From positions 1 through 64,000 of the forward strand of contig JAAXCX010000004.1 of assembly GCA_013036105.1 (NCBI GenBank): DNA of 64,000 nucleotides, read 5' to 3'. Below, in pieces: positions 8,381 to 30,483 of this stretch. This DNA is from Vulcanimicrobiota bacterium (GTDB lineage Bacteria; Vulcanimicrobiota; Vulcanimicrobiia; Vulcanimicrobiales; Vulcanimicrobiaceae). Made by a program: the position numbers and the translations under genes. The notes under the pieces were generated by a model that saw only the letters and a list, made by a program, of their open reading frames with translations, did no database searches and was not told where the DNA came from. The first letter of the stretch is position 1, and each line of letters starts with the position of its first letter.

Positions 8381-9571
8381 ATGGAGCACGTCGAGTTCCT
8401 GGTGATTGGCTGCGGACCGGCAGGAGGCATTGCCGCCCGCGAAGCTGCGCGGGCCGGTGTCGGAACCGTCGTGCTCGAGAAAGATTCGGTCGTCGGCGCC
8501 AAACGCGTCTGCGCCGCGGGGCTGCGCCCTGGATTTTGCGCGACGTTCGATGTGCCGCGCGAGATCGTGCATTGCGATACGCCGCGGCTGGCGCTTTTCG
8601 ATCCAGCCGGAAAAGAATACGAACTGGCGATCGTTCCGGGCCACACGACGACCCGTGAAGAGCTCGACGGAACCATCGGACGCTTAGCGTCTGCTGAAGG
8701 CGCCGATGTGCGCACAAACGCGTTGTTTCGCGAAATGCGGCGCGACGGCGATCGTATCGTGATCGAATACGCCGACGCGCGCGCCGGCGCCCGGAAAACG
8801 ATCGCCGCGCAGAACGTGTTTTTTGCGCAAGGCTCTACGGCGAAATTGGAAGAGACCGCGTTTGCCTATCCGCAATGGCAGAGTGGTTTAGTGACCACGC
8901 TTCAGTATCGCGTCTATCTGGATAGGCCCGCCGACGCGGTCGCTTACCGCTCGCTCGAGATGCATTATTTTGCGACCCGCGACGGTCGCATGACCGTGGC
9001 GTGGATGTTTCCCAAGCGCGATCATTTGGCGATCGGCCTTGGCGTGATGGGGAAAATGCCCGGCGCGCAGCTGCGGGAAGAACTCGATCGTTTCACCGAG
9101 CGGGTTCGCGCGCGGCTCTATCCGGCGGCCGCGTTCACGACCAAACTTGAAGGGCATCTGTTGTATGGCGGCGCGCCGCGCCCGGCCGTCGCGGTTCCGG
9201 GCGCAATGGTCGGCGGAACGGCCGCCGGTTTGGTTGACGCGACCAATGGCGAAGGCATTTATGAAGCAGCCATGAGCGGCCGCATGGCGGCTGAAGCCGT
9301 CAGTGCTGCGCGCGCGCAGCCCTCGCGCGCCTACGAGCGATACGGCACGGCACTCAAGAAGCGATTTTATGGACGTCTGCGTCATCGCGCCGAGCTCATG
9401 CGCTTTCTCGAACGCAAGCCTTCGCGCTACGCCAAACTGTTCGATCAGCTCGCCGGATCGCCGCGCTTCGTCGATATTCTGCAGCGCGAAGACCACGAGC
9501 GTACTCTCGGCGACCGCGCATTTCTCTATGGGCAGGCGCTGCGTTTCGCGGCGCGCACGGTGCATGGCTAG
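8381..9571 (+). CDS. Geranylgeranyl reductase family FAD-dependent oxidoreductase
   Basis: A 396-residue flavoprotein. The N-terminal Rossmann motif is FLVIGCGPAGGIAAREAA, followed by the KRVCAAGL segment where the family has its conserved Cys, and a GTAAGLVDATNGEGIYEA motif (FAD pyrophosphate contact) near residue 290. Family members saturate isoprenoid chains of quinones, chlorophylls or archaeal-type lipids; the local context does not tell which. Length is normal. The stop overlaps the start of the DppB-type permease by 8 bases, so the genes form one transcription unit with the sigma-factor gene downstream. Confidence 0.88.
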   Translation: MEHVEFLVIGCGPAGGIAAREAARAGVGTVVLEKDSVVGAKRVCAAGLRPGFCATFDVPREIVHCDTPRLALFDPAGKEYELAIVPGHTTTREELDGTIGRLASAEGADVRTNALFREMRRDGDRIVIEYADARAGARKTIAAQNVFFAQGSTAKLEETAFAYPQWQSGLVTTLQYRVYLDRPADAVAYRSLEMHYFATRDGRMTVAWMFPKRDHLAIGLGVMGKMPGAQLREELDRFTERVRARLYPAAAFTTKLEGHLLYGGAPRPAVAVPGAMVGGTAAGLVDATNGEGIYEAAMSGRMAAEAVSAARAQPSRAYERYGTALKKRFYGRLRHRAELMRFLERKPSRYAKLFDQLAGSPRFVDILQREDHERTLGDRAFLYGQALRFAARTVHG

Positions 9572-22712: not shown

Positions 22713-23003
22713 TTGCCGGGCTCTTGGATTGCCGTGGGATTTGCGCTGCACTACATCTTCGCGCTCGGCATCGTGGCGTTGCTGCTGCTCGGACTGAATA
22801 CAGCCGCGCGCGTATTTGCACGCGGCCGGGAATTATCCGGCGGCAAGAAGACCGTTCGCATTTTGGATTCGGCGCAGCTGACGAAGCAAGCTGCGCTGCA
22901 CGTGGCGGGGGTCGAAGGCCGCCGTTATCTCGTCGGCACAGCCGGCAACAGTGTAGCGCTTTTGGCCGAGCTGCCGGGCGAGCCCGGCGACGTTCCGGCT
23001 TAG
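22713..23003 (+). CDS. FliO-like type III export membrane protein
   Basis: A 96-residue protein with one N-terminal membrane helix (ALHYIFALGIVALLLLGL) followed by a cytoplasmic beta-rich domain. KTVRILDSAQLTKQAALHVA then EGRRYLVGTAGNSVALLAEL matches the FliO/FliZ pattern of a conserved strand pair ending in LLAEL. FliO helps assemble the FliP/FliR export gate in flagella. Starts considered are TTG 22713 and GTG 22734; no ATG is in frame. With the FliJ-like and sigma-28-type genes it is one of three scattered motility-type genes here. Confidence 0.65.
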   Translation: MPGSWIAVGFALHYIFALGIVALLLLGLNTAARVFARGRELSGGKKTVRILDSAQLTKQAALHVAGVEGRRYLVGTAGNSVALLAELPGEPGDVPA

Positions 23004-24025
23004 AAGTAAGTCAGGCGCCCGACTTTATTCGCCGCGGTTTCCGTGAAGTAAATTTCGGAGTCCGGGCCGAGTGAAAGAAACGACGCTTGGGAACCGGCGG
23101 TCGGAATCGGAAATTCGGTGACGCCGAACGAGATGCCGGAGATCTGACCGATCTTGTTCTGCGCGCGGTCGGTGAAGTAGAGATTGAAGTCGGCGCCGTT
23201 GATCAAACCGAAGGCGGACGTTGCCGGCGCGAGCGAGTGTTCGGTGACGACTCCGGCGGGGGTGATCTGTCCGAGCTTCGCCGCGTTGTTTTCGGTGAAG
23301 CAGAGCGTCTGGTTATCTGGGCACACGACGATCTGCGTGGGCGCGGCGTTGGCCGTCAGCGTTGGATGCGGAGCGCCGAACGTCTGTGCCGTAATGTCGA
23401 AGCGGACGATCGCCGAGGCGTTGCTTTCCGCAATCCAGATTCCGCCGTCGCTGAAACCGACGAGCCCCGCTAATCCGGCGTTTGGAGTCGGGACGGGGAA
23501 TTCCGTGATGTTGCCGCTGAGGTCTATACGGCCGAGTTTGTTAGCGGTAGTTTCGCTGAACCAAAGCGCGCCGTCGGGCCCGCGCGTGATGTAGGTCGGC
23601 CCGGCGTTGGCCGTCGGCAAGGGATACTCGGTACCAACGGTCGTCCCGGTTTGCGTGCCGATCTTGTTGGCCGTATTTTCCGTGAACCAAAGGCTCGTGT
23701 CGGGCATGCCGACGATGGCAAACGGTCCCGCGTTTGCCGTGGGCACCGGTGTTTCGACGAAAACGCCGCCGGTCGTCATTTGCGCAATCTTATTGCCCGC
23801 AGTTTCAGTGAAGTACAGGAAACCGTCGAAACCCAGGGTGATTCCCTGCGGCGCGCTGGCAGCGGTTGGCACCGTGAACTCCGCCGATACGTGCGGCACG
23901 ACCGGCGTGGGAGTGGGCAGCGGCCCGCTGCCGATCACCGTGCCGCCGGAGCAGGCAGTGGAGGCGAGCAAGGCCAGGGCGGCCGGGACCAACCCGGCGC
24001 TGCGAAAGACGAAGGGACGCCGCAT
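23000..24025 (-). CDS. Streptogramin-lyase-like beta-propeller lipoprotein
   Basis: About 341 residues from ATG 24025, which has GGAG seven bases upstream. The signal peptide ends LALLASTACSGG, likely a lipobox although the -3 residue is Ser. The mature chain is built of about six blades, each with a TEFPVPT-ANAGP turn and an LWFTENTANKIG-type strand, the Vgb/NHL-like propeller. True virginiamycin B lyases need a catalytic His-Glu-His set that I cannot locate, so enzyme activity is doubtful and a binding role is more likely. It is transcribed away from the BlaI operon and overlaps the FliO-like gene by 4 bases at its end. Confidence 0.82.
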   Translation of the reverse strand: MRRPFVFRSAGLVPAALALLASTACSGGTVIGSGPLPTPTPVVPHVSAEFTVPTAASAPQGITLGFDGFLYFTETAGNKIAQMTTGGVFVETPVPTANAGPFAIVGMPDTSLWFTENTANKIGTQTGTTVGTEYPLPTANAGPTYITRGPDGALWFSETTANKLGRIDLSGNITEFPVPTPNAGLAGLVGFSDGGIWIAESNASAIVRFDITAQTFGAPHPTLTANAAPTQIVVCPDNQTLCFTENNAAKLGQITPAGVVTEHSLAPATSAFGLINGADFNLYFTDRAQNKIGQISGISFGVTEFPIPTAGSQASFLSLGPDSEIYFTETAANKVGRLTYF

Positions 24026-24103
24026 TCTAGTCTCCATTGATAGGGGTAACGAATCGGCGCTATTCGTCCTCTCTCCAAGCGGGGCCCGCCACCCTTGCCG
24101 TGG

Positions 24104-24163
24104 TATTAATTCCATAGTTGACAACGGGTCTCCGACCCCTTATAGTCTACTAAAGAATTAATA
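24104..24163 (+). promoter_or_regulatory. Promoter of the BlaI/M56 operon framed by a 9-bp inverted repeat
   Basis: TTGACA (24118-24123), a 17-base spacer and TATAGT (24141-24146) form a near-consensus promoter. TATTAATTC (24104-24112) and GAATTAATA (24155-24163) are perfect inverted copies on either side of it. A second small dyad, TAGT-CT-ACTA, covers the -10. These are candidate operators for the BlaI-family repressor encoded next; BlaI repressors bind dyads that overlap their own promoter. Confidence 0.65.
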
Positions 24164-24188
24164 ACACTGGTCTGGCCTGGAGGTAGCT

Positions 24189-24572
24189 GTGGCTCGCAAG
24201 AAATCCCCCACTCTCACTGAGGCCGAGCTGCGTTTGATGGAAGTGCTGTGGCAGAAACGCAGCGCAACCATCGCCGACGTGACCGAAGCGCTTCCGCCGC
24301 CGCCGATTGCTTATAACACCGTGCTGACGACGATGCGCATTCTGGAACAAAAAGGCTACGTCAGTCACGAAGAAGAGGGCCGGGCCTACGTCTATTCACC
24401 GCTGGTCGAGCGCGAAGAAGCAGCACAGTCGGCGGTCGGCCTGCTGCTCAACCGGTTCTTCGGAAACAAATCGGCCGAGCTCGCGCTACGTTTGATCGAG
24501 AACGAGCGCCCGGGTGCCGCGGAACTTCAGCGGCTCAAGACGCTCATCGAACAGTACGAGGAAGGTTCCTAA
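24189..24572 (+). CDS. BlaI/MecI-family transcriptional repressor
   Basis: A 127-residue protein with the standard BlaI layout: winged helix (LTEAELRLMEVLWQ ... TIADVTEAL ... AYNTVLTTMRILEQKGYVSHE) followed by a C-terminal dimerisation helix bundle containing LLNRFFGNKS, near the site cut in staphylococcal BlaI/MecI. It should repress the operon until its partner membrane protease triggers cleavage. The start is GTG with a GGAGG site 5 bases upstream. The partner gene starts on the last base of its stop codon. Confidence 0.94.
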   Translation: MARKKSPTLTEAELRLMEVLWQKRSATIADVTEALPPPPIAYNTVLTTMRILEQKGYVSHEEEGRAYVYSPLVEREEAAQSAVGLLLNRFFGNKSAELALRLIENERPGAAELQRLKTLIEQYEEGS

Positions 24573-26698
24573 TGCACGCGCTCGCGGCTTTTGCCGAACC
24601 GGCCGCGCGGATCGCGGTTGCGACACTGTTCAATAGTTTATGGGAAGGCGCGATCCTCGCGCTGGCGGTTTGGGCTCTCTTAAATTATCTGCCGAACATC
24701 AACGCGACCACGCGCTATGCGGCGTGGTGCGTTGCATTGGTTGCGGCCCTGGTCGTTCCGGTCGTCACGGCCATCCCGCAGGTCAGCGTGCAGAGTGCGC
24801 CGGTATTTCACCACGCGGCCGCGGCGGCGCCCGTGGGGGCGCGCAACGCGAAAGTGGCCGCGCCTTCCAAACTGCCGCTGCAGGCCGCGAGTCAAACCGG
24901 TCCCGCCTACAAGGCCGCGCTTGCGCCCAGTTTCCCGAGCCGCTTGCGCTTTGCGCTGCCGCAAGCTGCGGCGCTGGCGATCTTCGCGGTATGGATCGCG
25001 GCCTCGCTCTTCCTTTTAATGCGGCTGGCTTTCAATCTCTTCAAACTCGAGGCGCTCAAGCGCGACGCGCTGCCGCTCTCGCTCGACTACCGGGAGCAGC
25101 TGGCGCGCTGGACACGCGCCGAGAAGGGCACGCGCGACGTCCGCTTATGCGTCTCTGAACAGATCGAGGTTCCCGTCGCGGTCGGCCTGTTCGACTCGAT
25201 GGTGCTGATCCCAAAACATCTGCTCGAAACGCTCTCCGAAAAAGAGATCGATCAAATCACGCTGCACGAACTCGCGCATTTGCGCCGCGCAGATGATTGG
25301 ACCAACGGCCTGCAGCGCATCATCCAAGCGATCTTTTTCTTCAATCCGGCGGTGCTGTTTATGGCGCAGCAGCTCGACTTGGAACGCGAAGTGGCCTGCG
25401 ACGACTGGGTTCTCCATCAGACGGGCGACGTTCGTCCGTACGCAACCTGTCTGACGCGGATGGCGGAAGTGACGGCGTGGCCTCATCGCGCACTCGCCGC
25501 TCCGGGCGTATTTCTCACGCGGCGGGGACTCTCGGTGCGCGTCGAGAGACTGCTTCGCGCAGGGCGCAACGTGCGCACCAGCGTTTCGTTCGGACCGGCC
25601 GGCGCGGTCGCCGCAGCGCTGATCGTCACGTTCTTCCTTGCGCAAAACGTCGCGCCGTCGTTCGCATTCACGCTTTCGCCCGGCGCGCTCGCGGCTCACA
25701 ACGCTCACTTCACCCAAGCCCATCTCTCCGCGCCGCGGACCTCCGCGAGCGCCGGCAAAACGACCATCGTCTATCGCGATAAGTATCTTCCGGCGCAGCA
25801 AGCGTTCCCGCAGGCGATCGTCGCAGCCGTCACGGCCGCTCCGCGCGCCGCCGCGCCGGCTACAAAGAAGCCGGCGAAGACGGCAAAGCCGGCAACACAA
25901 ACGTACAAGCGCACGACGGTTCACAATGGCATGGTCGACGTGAACGTTCCGGCCATCAACATCCACCAGCCCGAAGTGAACGTCCATGTGCCGGCGACTG
26001 ACGTTCACGTTCCCGAGATCAACGTGCACGTTCCGGCGATTCACGTCAACGTTCCGGCCTACAACTACCACTACAACTATGACGACAAACTGAAAAAGGT
26101 CTCGGATCTCAACGGGTCTTGCACCGGTTGCGATTTCAGCAAAGTAAATTGGGCCGGTCGAAACCTTTCGCGTGTCTCACTCATCGGATCGGATTTCTCA
26201 AACGCCGATCTGCACGGAGCAAACTTTTCGTACGCCAATCTTAGCGGCGTGGATTTTTCGGGCGCGAATCTGCGCAACGTCAACTTTGCATTCGCCAATC
26301 TGAACGGCTGCGACATGAGGCATGCCGATCTGACCGGTGCGAATTTCGGCGGCGCGCAGATTAATGGATGCGACATTCCGGTCGCGGGACTGGCCCCCGC
26401 GCAGGCGCGCGCGGTTCTCACGAGTTGCAACGGCTGTGATTTCAAGAACGTCAATCTACGCAACCAAGACTTGCGCGGGATCTCCGTGAGCGGCGACGAT
26501 TTCGCGTACGCCGACCTTCGCGGCACGGACCTGCGCAACGCATCGTTCAACGGCGTCGATTTCAAGAACGCCAAACTCGACGGCGCCCGTCTTGACGGCG
26601 CTTCTTTTAACGGCTGCGATTTCTCGGGCGTCGACCTGCGCAACGTGGACTTGAGCCACACGCAAATCACGGGCAGCAAAATTACTCTCATGAGGTAG
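24572..26698 (+). CDS. BlaR1-type M56 membrane protease fused to an extracellular pentapeptide-repeat domain
   Basis: A 708-residue fusion. Residues 1-370 are a BlaR1/MecR1-like M56 protease: membrane helices near 12-38, 48-68, 125-155 and 345-372, with the zinc site H232ELAH and LEREVACDDW in the cytoplasmic loop. After the last helix, where BlaR1 has its penicillin-binding sensor, come a Ala/Lys-rich linker, a run of VHVPAI/VNVPE-type repeats (about 455-505) and a pentapeptide-repeat domain (about 515-705) with A(N/D)LxG-type repeats. The domain has two CxGCDF caps (SCTGCDF and SCNGCDF) separated by APAQARAVL. No SxxK penicillin-binding motif is present. The sensed signal is unknown. The next gene encodes an exported protein with the same module. 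Confidence 0.9.
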   Translation: MHALAAFAEPAARIAVATLFNSLWEGAILALAVWALLNYLPNINATTRYAAWCVALVAALVVPVVTAIPQVSVQSAPVFHHAAAAAPVGARNAKVAAPSKLPLQAASQTGPAYKAALAPSFPSRLRFALPQAAALAIFAVWIAASLFLLMRLAFNLFKLEALKRDALPLSLDYREQLARWTRAEKGTRDVRLCVSEQIEVPVAVGLFDSMVLIPKHLLETLSEKEIDQITLHELAHLRRADDWTNGLQRIIQAIFFFNPAVLFMAQQLDLEREVACDDWVLHQTGDVRPYATCLTRMAEVTAWPHRALAAPGVFLTRRGLSVRVERLLRAGRNVRTSVSFGPAGAVAAALIVTFFLAQNVAPSFAFTLSPGALAAHNAHFTQAHLSAPRTSASAGKTTIVYRDKYLPAQQAFPQAIVAAVTAAPRAAAPATKKPAKTAKPATQTYKRTTVHNGMVDVNVPAINIHQPEVNVHVPATDVHVPEINVHVPAIHVNVPAYNYHYNYDDKLKKVSDLNGSCTGCDFSKVNWAGRNLSRVSLIGSDFSNADLHGANFSYANLSGVDFSGANLRNVNFAFANLNGCDMRHADLTGANFGGAQINGCDIPVAGLAPAQARAVLTSCNGCDFKNVNLRNQDLRGISVSGDDFAYADLRGTDLRNASFNGVDFKNAKLDGARLDGASFNGCDFSGVDLRNVDLSHTQITGSKITLMR

Positions 26699-26773
26699 GT
26701 CCCGTAAGAACGGTCATCTCTTAGCGCTTGCGCGTGCAGGCTTGGTTTTCTGCGGACTTTTTGGAGAGGAACC

Positions 26774-27604
26774 ATGATAAAGCGGCTTACAATCTTCCTC
26801 GGAGCGGCGGCGATCGCGACCACGTTTATGGCCGCCAGTTCGAGTACGGCGCGCGCTCAGCTCGGACTTCCGCGCTCGTGCGTCGGCTGCGACATGCGCG
26901 GTAACGACCTCCACGGACGCGACCTGCGCGAAGTCGCATGGGTAGGCGTGGATCTGAACGGCGTGAACCTGCGCAACGCCAACCTCTCCGGCGCGAAACT
27001 GGCCGGCGTGAATTTTCGCGACGCCGACTTGCGCGGAGCGGATCTCCGTGACGCCAAGCTGGCGGGCTGCGATCTGCGCGGTGCTAAATTGGACGGCGCT
27101 CAGCTCGGGGGGATCAAACTGGCCGGCGCCAATCTCTCAGGCGGTTTCTTAAACGGCTTGCCCGACTTTCAAGCGCGTGCGCTGCTCGCGAATTGCGCGG
27201 GCTGCAATCTGCGCAACGTCGATTTGCACGGCAAGAATCTTCAAGACATCCGTGTCGCGGGCAGCAATTTTTCGGATTCGAATTTGAGCGGCGCGAATCT
27301 GCGCGGTTCCTCATTGATGGCGGACAATTTGTCCGGTGTGAACCTTCAGAACGCGGACCTCGGCGGCGCCGCGCTTTGCGGGCATGAGACGAATTGGAAC
27401 GACGGCAAGTACACGATCGGTACGCGCATCTTTTGCACGAATCTGCGCGGCGCCGACCTGCGCGGAGCGGATCTGCGCGGTTCGCTGCTGTGCGATCCGG
27501 CCGGCGGTTCGGGCTCCGATGCTGAGCGCAACTGCGTGCCGCTGGACGCGGCGACGCTGCGCGACGTGGCGCACGCTAACCTCACCGGCGCGAAAGGACC
27601 CTAA
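26774..27604 (+). CDS. Exported pentapeptide-repeat protein with CxGC caps
   Basis: A 276-residue protein with a signal peptide (ends STARAQ) and GGAGAGG before the ATG. The mature chain is two pentapeptide-repeat blocks of A(D/N)LRG-type repeats, predicted as right-handed square beta-helices. Each block is opened by a Cys-x-Gly-Cys cap (SCVGCDMRGNDL and NCAGCNLRNVDL); between them is LPDFQARALL, matching APAQARAVL in the neighbouring M56 fusion. Cytoplasmic relatives such as Qnr and MfpA mimic DNA and protect gyrase, but this protein is exported, so that role does not carry over. It may interact with the M56 sensor domain. Two further Cys pairs (ALCGHE, RIFCTN, SLLCDP) lie near the end. Confidence 0.9.
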   Translation: MIKRLTIFLGAAAIATTFMAASSSTARAQLGLPRSCVGCDMRGNDLHGRDLREVAWVGVDLNGVNLRNANLSGAKLAGVNFRDADLRGADLRDAKLAGCDLRGAKLDGAQLGGIKLAGANLSGGFLNGLPDFQARALLANCAGCNLRNVDLHGKNLQDIRVAGSNFSDSNLSGANLRGSSLMADNLSGVNLQNADLGGAALCGHETNWNDGKYTIGTRIFCTNLRGADLRGADLRGSLLCDPAGGSGSDAERNCVPLDAATLRDVAHANLTGAKGP

Positions 27605-27606
27605 AC

Positions 27607-29673
27607 ATGAAAACACTGATCGCTGCGGCGATGCTGGCCGCGCTTACGTCGGGGACCGCAACCGCGATCGAACCGGCCGCGGCGCAAGACCTGCTGACGG
27701 TACCCGTGGTCGCGTCGGCGCCGGCTATGGACGGAACGCTGAGCGATCCGCTCTGGCAGAAAGCCGCGACGGCGAACCTTGGGTACGACGTCAATCTGCA
27801 TCAGCCGGCCAAGCAGCCCTCGACGGCGTACGTGTTAACCGACGGCAGATTTCTCTACGTCGCATTCGACGTGAAAACCAGCGCGCCGATCAGCGCTCAG
27901 GAACACACCAACGGCGTCGGCATGGACACCGATGACGAAGTGCAAGTCGATCTCTGGCCGGGCGGCGACCAGGGCTTCATGTATAAGTTCACGTCAACGC
28001 CAATCGGCACACATTACCAGTTTTCAACCGAAAACAACTCGTACGAACCAAACTGGACCTCGGCCGGCAAAATCAGTGCCGGAGGATTTACGGTCACGAT
28101 GAAGATTCCGCTGGCGGGAATGCGCGGCGCCGGCAAGATCTGGCGCGTGCAGTTCATCCGCCTGTCTCCGGCCACGCGCGAAAGTTTGGTCTGGCGCGGG
28201 GCCGCCAGCCAGAGCGATTTCAACGACGTGACGTACTCGGGCAAGTTGACGGGAATTCCGACCGTGGGATCGTCGCGGCCGAAGAGCCGCATTGCCGTCT
28301 ACGGTTTGGGAACGCTGGCCTCGCGTTCGATCGGCGGCAGCACGTCGCGCGCCGGCGCCGACTTGTCGATACCGCTGGACTCGAGCACGACGTTTGTGGC
28401 AACACTGCATCCCGACTATTCGAATGTCGAAAAAGATCAGCAGAGCATTTCGCCGACCGCATTCAGGCGGTTCTTCAATGAAGTGCGGCCATTCTTCACG
28501 CAGGGAGCGAACTTCTATAATCCGTTCTCGTGCACGGGATGCCCGGGGATACAAGAGTTGTACACACCGGCCATTCCGACGCCGCGCGACGGGTACGCGA
28601 TCGAAGGCAAAGAAGGCCGCTTCAACTTCGCCGGCTTCGACGCCGTTGGAATCGGCCGTAACGACAACGCGCAATCGTTCTACTATAAGACGCCGAACCG
28701 GCGCCTGCAGATTGCGACGCAGCGCGTCGCGGTGAGTATGCCGGGTTTCAACGACGTCACCGTTACCGACGGCGTCACATACAACAATCATTCCGACCTC
28801 TTTGCCTATTACAACTGGGGCTACGACCGCGGAACCTCGGTCCTCGACAACAACGACAACAAACGTTCGGATTTCGGGATCGGGTATGAACCGCCGAACT
28901 TTTTCGCGGGTTTGAGCATTCGCAAGATCGGAACGTACTACAATCCATTTGACGGTATCATCGCTCACCCCGGCATCGCCGGATACGACGTCAACGTTGA
29001 TAAGCAATGGAACTATACCGCAAAGAGCGCGTTCAAGTGGATTAACGTGAGTGCTTCGCTCGACCGGTATCACGGAACCGGCGGCGCCCTTAACCAGACC
29101 GATAACAACGCCGGTTTCGACTTGCTTACGCGAAACTTCATCGAACTGTGGGCCAACACGGGCTCATCGTACCTGCGGCTCGGAAACGGCGTATTCACGC
29201 CTATTACGATTAACTCGCGCGGTTTGGGCTGGCGCAGCACGACGGCGTATCCCACCTTCATTGAGTACGACTCGGGCAGATTCGGGCCGGGGAGCATCAT
29301 ATCGTGGGGACGCAGCAGCGTCATTCGCGTCGGCAACCGCGCCTCGATCACGCTTCAGGCCAACGACACGCAGCAGCACCTCGATAACGGGCCGACGTAC
29401 GCGCAGTGGCTGGAGCGCTTGAGCTACTCATACCAGAGTGGGTTGAACGAGTCGTTCGCGGTCGGCGTCCGGCGCATCATCGGCATCTCGCCGGTGCTCG
29501 GCGCGGGCGACGTTCCATCGTTTTCCAGCGGGTGGAATCTTTCGTTCGCCTATCACAAACTGTTGCAGCACAACGAAATTTATCTGGTGTACGGCGACGC
29601 GAGCGCGTTCTCGACCTCGCCGCAGCTGATCTTCAAAGTCGTGCACTATTTCGGCGCCGATAAGGGAACGTAA
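27607..29673 (+). CDS. DUF5916-type outer-membrane protein with CBM9-like N-terminal domain
   Basis: A 688-residue exported protein (signal peptide ends TATA). Residues about 35-215 resemble the carbohydrate-binding family 9-like fold: MDGTLSDPLWQKA, YVAFDVKTS, DTDDEVQVDLWP and a closing VQFIRLSPATRE. The rest is Gly/Asn/aromatic-rich alternating strands of a beta-barrel, containing RRFFNEVRPFFTQGANFYNP, the DUF5916 hallmark. Function is unestablished; family members occur with TonB-dependent systems. Starts 3 bases after the exported pentapeptide gene, so probably the same operon. It is direct evidence for an outer membrane. Confidence 0.88.
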   Translation: MKTLIAAAMLAALTSGTATAIEPAAAQDLLTVPVVASAPAMDGTLSDPLWQKAATANLGYDVNLHQPAKQPSTAYVLTDGRFLYVAFDVKTSAPISAQEHTNGVGMDTDDEVQVDLWPGGDQGFMYKFTSTPIGTHYQFSTENNSYEPNWTSAGKISAGGFTVTMKIPLAGMRGAGKIWRVQFIRLSPATRESLVWRGAASQSDFNDVTYSGKLTGIPTVGSSRPKSRIAVYGLGTLASRSIGGSTSRAGADLSIPLDSSTTFVATLHPDYSNVEKDQQSISPTAFRRFFNEVRPFFTQGANFYNPFSCTGCPGIQELYTPAIPTPRDGYAIEGKEGRFNFAGFDAVGIGRNDNAQSFYYKTPNRRLQIATQRVAVSMPGFNDVTVTDGVTYNNHSDLFAYYNWGYDRGTSVLDNNDNKRSDFGIGYEPPNFFAGLSIRKIGTYYNPFDGIIAHPGIAGYDVNVDKQWNYTAKSAFKWINVSASLDRYHGTGGALNQTDNNAGFDLLTRNFIELWANTGSSYLRLGNGVFTPITINSRGLGWRSTTAYPTFIEYDSGRFGPGSIISWGRSSVIRVGNRASITLQANDTQQHLDNGPTYAQWLERLSYSYQSGLNESFAVGVRRIIGISPVLGAGDVPSFSSGWNLSFAYHKLLQHNEIYLVYGDASAFSTSPQLIFKVVHYFGADKGT

Positions 29674-29697
29674 GGCGCCCGCGGCGTAAAAAGGAGC

Positions 29698-30483
29698 ATG
29701 TGGATCTCGCTCGCGATGGCGGTCTCGCTCGCCACTCCGGCGCCGGCTGCCACGCCCCTCAAGACAATTAAGCACATTTATGTTTCGCCGCTCTGCACGG
29801 GCTTGCGGCAAAACATCGGGCCGGCGATCGGCAAAGTGCTGCAAAACGATAACACGATCGCGCAGAGCCGTCCGTTGCTTCGCGGGTATGTAAAGGCGAC
29901 CGCGACCAGCGGCATTTCAAAAGATTTGCAGGTCTCGCGTATCGAGCGCCTGATCACGCCGCTCGTGAAAAATACCGCAGCTATCGAAAAGCTGCTCGAC
30001 GATCCGTTTGTCTTTCCGAAGCATGCGATATCGGATGCCGACCGGCAGCTGCTCGACATACGCGCAGACTTGCAGGAAGTCGTGACGCAGCAGAAGCGCG
30101 CGCTTGATGTTATCAGCGGCTTCGTGGACACCGAGCAACTCGGTCAAATGCAAGCCGCCGGAAGCGAAGCGCTCAAACTCACCCAGTCGCATGAGATACC
30201 CGGCGCGCAAGGCGGCCATAGCACCGGGAGCGCGCAATCAGCGGGCGCGGCGCCCACGCCGCCGCCGTCTGAAATCCTGAACGCCGGCGTGCGCAACACG
30301 CCCGGTCAAGCGGCCGATCCGGCATTGCAAGAGACCGGAATGGTCGTCGGACACAATCCGCTCGACGTTTTTGATAATGCCATCGGACAATACCAGCAAA
30401 TGCTGCAGTCGAGCGAAGGCCAAGCCGCGGCTCTCGTCGTGAAAGCGTTACCGCTTTGCGGCGGGCACGTCCCCGGCACCTAG
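29698..30483 (+). CDS. Secreted protein of unknown function
   Basis: A 261-residue protein with a short signal peptide (MWISLAMAVSLATPAPAA) and AAAAAGGAG before the ATG. The first 150 residues look helical, with KTIKHIYVSPLCTGLRQNIG and a QVSRIERLITPLVKN segment; then a low-complexity Gly/Ser/Pro linker and a C-terminal helix DNAIGQYQQMLQSSEG. One Cys lies near each end (SPLCTG and LPLCGG), perhaps a disulfide. I recognise no family. It is the last gene of the BlaI-led unit and overlaps the convergent hydantoinase gene by 36 bases. Confidence 0.7.
   Translation: MWISLAMAVSLATPAPAATPLKTIKHIYVSPLCTGLRQNIGPAIGKVLQNDNTIAQSRPLLRGYVKATATSGISKDLQVSRIERLITPLVKNTAAIEKLLDDPFVFPKHAISDADRQLLDIRADLQEVVTQQKRALDVISGFVDTEQLGQMQAAGSEALKLTQSHEIPGAQGGHSTGSAQSAGAAPTPPPSEILNAGVRNTPGQAADPALQETGMVVGHNPLDVFDNAIGQYQQMLQSSEGQAAALVVKALPLCGGHVPGT

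Follow-up and report, generated by a model that had tools for sequence, protein, structure and literature searches.

The closest described systems are BlaI-BlaR1-BlaZ and MecI-MecR1-MecA of the staphylococci, in which the gene for a BlaI-family repressor overlaps or adjoins that for an M56 receptor protease with four hydrophobic segments, an HExxH zinc site plus E, D and R, a C-terminal extracytoplasmic sensor and a co-regulated exported product. BlaR1 of S. aureus cleaves BlaI directly when its external sensor is engaged (PMC9834060). A little-studied group of soil bacteria, Candidatus Eremiobacterota, appears to have re-used this antibiotic-sensing switch with a different outside sensor, a repeat-built rod, and in most cases the next gene encodes an apparently exported protein built from the same kind of repeat, as if the two were a matched pair for watching the cell envelope. 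Two other groups bear comparison. Toastrack (DUF4097/DUF2807) envelope-stress proteins and the Lia/PSP systems (PMC11237479) likewise tie beta-helical repeat domains to envelope-stress regulation, but no PspA, LiaFSR or histidine kinase was seen in the loci examined here, and Toastrack is proposed in that paper to be intracellular, whereas the copies found here carry signal peptides or sit on the presumed outer side of M56. Pentapeptide repeat (PPR) proteins such as Qnr, MfpA, HetL and the lumenal Rfr proteins share the quadrilateral beta-helix, by sequence and Foldseek match, but the well-known ones are mostly cytoplasmic, several acting on gyrase, while those described here are apparently exported and paired with a receptor of the same repeat type. 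Literature searches, which did not cover subscription journals, found no paper on an M56/BlaI receptor with pentapeptide repeats.

The blaI-M56 operon and its promoter

The window analysed, a stretch of 64,000 nucleotides, lies on a 166-kb contig of a 2.34-Mb genome; genes were called by a simple open-reading-frame rule, so start sites are approximate. The five genes of the operon are all on the forward strand. The first, blaI (24189-24572, 127 amino acids), carries a full-length Penicillinase_R domain (PF03965; residues 9-122, profile positions 1-115 of 115, E 1.8e-30), although the Asn101-Phe102 pair at which S. aureus BlaI is cleaved was not identified in it. The M56 gene (24572-26698, 708 amino acids) overlaps blaI by one base. 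Its Peptidase_M56 domain (PF05569, E 3.2e-37) covers residues 24-324, its four hydrophobic segments lie at residues 14-32, 50-68, 125-143 and 338-356, and H232, E233, H236, E273, D277 and R323 are aligned without substitution (one gap) in 90 M56 proteins of the phylum. The M56 domain, the HExxH site with its third ligand and the four membrane helices expected of M56/BlaR1 receptor proteases are all present. A linker or stalk at about residues 365-505 is followed by pentapeptide repeats (PF00805, E 9.9e-51) at about 515-708. The C-terminus is PPR only, with no transpeptidase match, and the NCBIfam BlaR1 and MecR1 models score far below cut-off; nor is there a beta-lactamase or PBP gene in the operon. 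AlphaFold2 predicts a confident beta-helix for the sensor, at about residues 510-708 (pLDDT about 75-90 from residue 520), while the M56 part was not modelled reliably from the only four sequences used.

The next gene (26774-27604, 276 amino acids) encodes a PPR protein (E 3.7e-37) with a Sec-type signal peptide and a C-terminal cap, predicted to form two beta-helix lobes joined by a short helical link (mean pLDDT 76.5) and placed by Foldseek with pentapeptide solenoids; like the sensor, it has tandem A(D/N)LXX repeats predicted to form a right-handed beta-helix. It is followed by a CBM9/DUF5916 gene (27607-29673, 688 amino acids, with signal peptide), whose product is a probable outer-membrane barrel only on the strength of a short DUF5916 match (E 1.1e-6) and a CBM9_1 match (E 3.9e-5), both weak but above cut-off, and by a gene for a secreted protein (29698-30483, 261 amino acids) with no Pfam or NCBIfam family, homologues of which follow DUF5916 genes in relatives.

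The observation behind the original prediction, of a BlaI/M56 operon with a pentapeptide-repeat sensor and an exported pentapeptide protein, is thus confirmed, with two small corrections. The VHVPA-type stalk, which had been taken as a module common to both PPR proteins, is found only in the receptor, and in only 18 of 56 PPR receptors, and is probably a spacer; and the outer-membrane barrel rests on the weak matches just described. That the fusion might be an assembly join, named beforehand as a possible refutation, is ruled out by its recurrence in 25 genera and in a closed genome: the order blaI, M56-PPR, PPR, often followed by DUF5916 and the protein of no known family, recurs in relatives, and one locus (L053: blaI, M56-PPR, PPR, PPR) lies on a single contig of 3,508,363 bases, exactly as many as the published chromosome of Vulcanimicrobium alpinus WC8-2, a cultured diderm member of the phylum. 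A DUF5916 search of that genome found nothing, but its control also found nothing, so this says little. Two consecutive PPR genes are also seen in loci L089 and L090, and locus L046 has an extra PPR gene (8685-9317) upstream of blaI.

The blaI promoter has a -35 box TTGACA (24118-24123) and a -10 box TATAGT (24141-24146), 17 bp apart, the -35 being conserved in aligned upstream regions. A putative operator, O1 (24104-24119, TATTAATTCCATAGTT), overlaps the -35 box, and a second, O2 (24148-24163, TACTAAAGAATTAATA), lies just after the -10; the dyad, of consensus TACTAANNNNTTAGTA, is found upstream of blaI across the phylum. A divergent virginiamycin-B-lyase-like protein, probably a lipoprotein (23000-24124, reverse strand), shares the intergenic region with blaI in this and several related genomes, so that O1 might affect it as well. 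The pattern TAANNNNWTAGTTGACA occurs twice in this genome, at this blaI and, as an identical 17-mer (24107-24123 in the window, with only these two occurrences), before an exported DUF4097 (Toastrack) gene on another contig (C1:148840; L065 from 10348 onward). In 81 family genomes it gives about 92 sites, against 2 for the reversed control, and in the combined surveys sites are present in 42 of 50 genomes with M56 and 2 of 19 without. Of 42 sites away from the surveyed blaI-M56 promoters (two of them in L065 and L067), 6 precede further blaI genes, 6 secreted PPR genes, 9 DUF5916-type genes and 6 Toastrack genes, as judged by Pfam for eleven and by inspection for the others; the rest are mixed or unassigned, about a third of the unlinked sites preceding unrelated or unassigned genes, with an S9-type peptidase, a winged-helix regulator and an unassigned gene at L212, L213 and L245. 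BlaI therefore probably runs an envelope regulon that includes unlinked relatives of the operon's own products, though its binding to these dyads is inferred from sequence alone.

Matching of sensor and partner repeat types

M56 loci were found in 69 of 121 genomes of the phylum, and the 137 loci were classified by the similarity of their C-terminal sensors as 56 PPR, 26 helical repeat ('DLIRLRSVGVDPAYI'-like), 27 TonB_C-like and 28 other, with neighbouring genes classed by which sensors they match. PPR receptors are followed within two genes on the same strand by a PPR gene in 41 of 56 loci (19 genera) and never by a helical-repeat gene; helical receptors are followed by a helical-repeat gene in 21 of 26 (10 genera) and never by a PPR gene; TonB_C receptors are followed by neither. 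Because loci of one genus are not independent, genera were counted as well, and Fisher's test by genus gives 5e-8. Seventeen genomes carry both types without crossing them. A chance neighbourhood is rejected by the absence of cross-pairing. The genome of this window is a further example, since contig C28 (1634-6091; L066) holds blaI, a helical-repeat M56 gene, a gene for a secreted helical-repeat protein and a DUF5916 gene, the helical-repeat region having no Pfam family and the operator differing in sequence. DUF5916 genes lie within three genes downstream of 33 of 56 PPR and 10 of 26 helical receptors, but of 0 of 27 TonB_C receptors. In about 15 PPR loci and 5 helical loci no matched partner follows directly, some of these ending at contig edges, and in 8 the DUF5916 gene follows the receptor at once, so a linked partner is not obligatory.

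Other M56 sensors in the phylum include HEAT-like repeats (recognized by eye), HEAT-like repeats plus Toastrack, and Kelch repeats (L068, L069, L122, L084), and two M56 sensors contain Toastrack domains. A Toastrack version of the rule was considered for L067, where a receptor with a DUF2807/DUF4097 domain lies beside an exported DUF4097 gene, but was not counted, because a Toastrack-like reading frame also seems to lie upstream of blaI in L063, whose receptor is PPR. The survey stops at this phylum; a wider scan of contigs with exact peptide patterns returned only three close relatives.

On a tree of 90 M56 domains the PPR and helical labels each need at least five changes on starred branches, so sensors have been swapped, and partner type follows sensor type in the separate branches. 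On a tree of PPR domains all 47 sensors lie on one side of a branch and all 39 exported domains on the other (support 89/57; 90% of bootstrap trees), which fits an old pair inherited together rather than repeated local duplication; recent tandem duplication of the sensor is rejected by this tree. The same result bears on the idea that the repeat domain is only a stalk or dimerization module, with the neighbour a chance duplicate of it: PPR proteins such as MfpA and Qnr dimerize and BlaR1 works as a dimer, but the exported PPRs form their own group with their own signal peptide and cap, are not local copies, and their genes also carry the operator when unlinked, so we regard this reading as very unlikely. 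The exported-type C-terminal cap is found in 38 exported proteins and in only three receptors, those of the family-f3 loci L057-L059, where it is fused to the receptor (68-80 bits; the exported proteins score 57-105, bar one at 10) and no separate PPR gene follows. Sensor and exported distances covary slightly beyond what M56 and BlaI predict (partial r 0.22, p 0.0025 by permutation), a weak effect that is suggestive only.

A predicted envelope-sensing switch

The interpretation in the original prediction, that an exported pentapeptide protein or an envelope ligand shared by both beta-helices triggers BlaI cleavage and derepression, is partly supported: neither of the two possible refutations that could be checked held, since the fusion is not an assembly join and the two PPR proteins do co-occur, in 19 genera with no cross-pairing against a second repeat type, and BlaI control is backed by the conserved double operator and its unlinked copies in front of the same protein families, but the triggering step remains inference. 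That prediction recognized neither the operator nor that the rule is general, helical-repeat receptors having helical-repeat partners. In the explanation we favour, with about even confidence, this is a BlaR1-type proteolytic switch rebuilt as an envelope sensor. BlaI would repress its own operon and unlinked envelope genes through the two operators flanking the promoter, and the M56 protein would be a receptor with four membrane helices, a cytoplasmic zinc protease and a periplasmic PPR beta-helix in place of the penicillin-binding domain. When this solenoid changes its binding state the protease would be activated and cut BlaI, as shown for S. aureus BlaR1, and the exported solenoid, the DUF5916 protein and the regulon members would be made. 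The conserved catalytic residues, the blaI linkage and the operators make the same chain of events the best reading here. The exported solenoid would be the receptor's matched partner, acting at the same periplasmic step, most simply by docking on the sensor solenoid and so reporting on, or feeding back from, the envelope. The gene order, the matching rule, the cap fusion in three genomes, the operator pattern with its probable regulon and the intact zinc site come directly from the present analysis, while binding by BlaI, its cleavage, the docking and the sign of the feedback are inferred without expression, binding or cleavage data.

What engages the sensor may instead follow the logic of bla/mec, where the receptor senses the beta-lactam and the induced products BlaZ and PBP2a act on the same drug (PMC9834060). 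In that case sensor and exported protein would not touch, but both would recognize the same envelope molecule, the one to report it and the other to bind or neutralize it. The tolerated loss of the linked partner in some loci favours this, and joint swapping of sensor and partner fits a change of ligand; on the other hand there is no candidate ligand, and the cap fusion puts both in one chain, which a shared ligand does not require. Joint swapping, cap fusion and the weak covariation favour direct docking, whereas the bla/mec precedent and the loci without a linked partner favour a shared ligand; we place docking slightly ahead and hold the shared ligand as a tentative alternative. It is also conceivable, but unlikely, that the exported PPR is a structural envelope protein, perhaps with the DUF5916 barrel, merely sharing ancestry and operon with a sensor that detects something unrelated. 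Unlinked secreted PPR and DUF5916 genes share the operator, so the regulon is wider than the pair, and PPR proteins are common in these genomes, but two unrelated repeat types obey the same rule with no crossing, even within the 17 genomes that carry both, and the cap fusion also speaks against it. A further possibility, doubtful but of considerable interest if true, is a modular receptor principle, in which the periplasmic solenoid of an M56 receptor is read by an exported solenoid of the same repeat type, possibly by end-to-end stacking of beta-helices, since most receptors lack the exported-type cap and the fused forms carry it; swapping the repeat type would then swap receptor and exported partner together and keep parallel systems in one cell insulated.

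The repressor, the protease and their linkage are thus of the described bla/mec type, while the sensor, the matched exported partner and a probable regulon of PPR, DUF5916 and Toastrack proteins differ from it. BlaI/M56 pairs are widespread but have been studied almost only for beta-lactams, leaving unknown what most of them sense. Here the receptor's sensor type predicts the type of its exported partner, and an operator predicts the regulon, which gives concrete and testable candidates for ligand and output, in a system also carried by the genome that matches cultured V. alpinus WC8-2 in chromosome size and so open to study at the bench.
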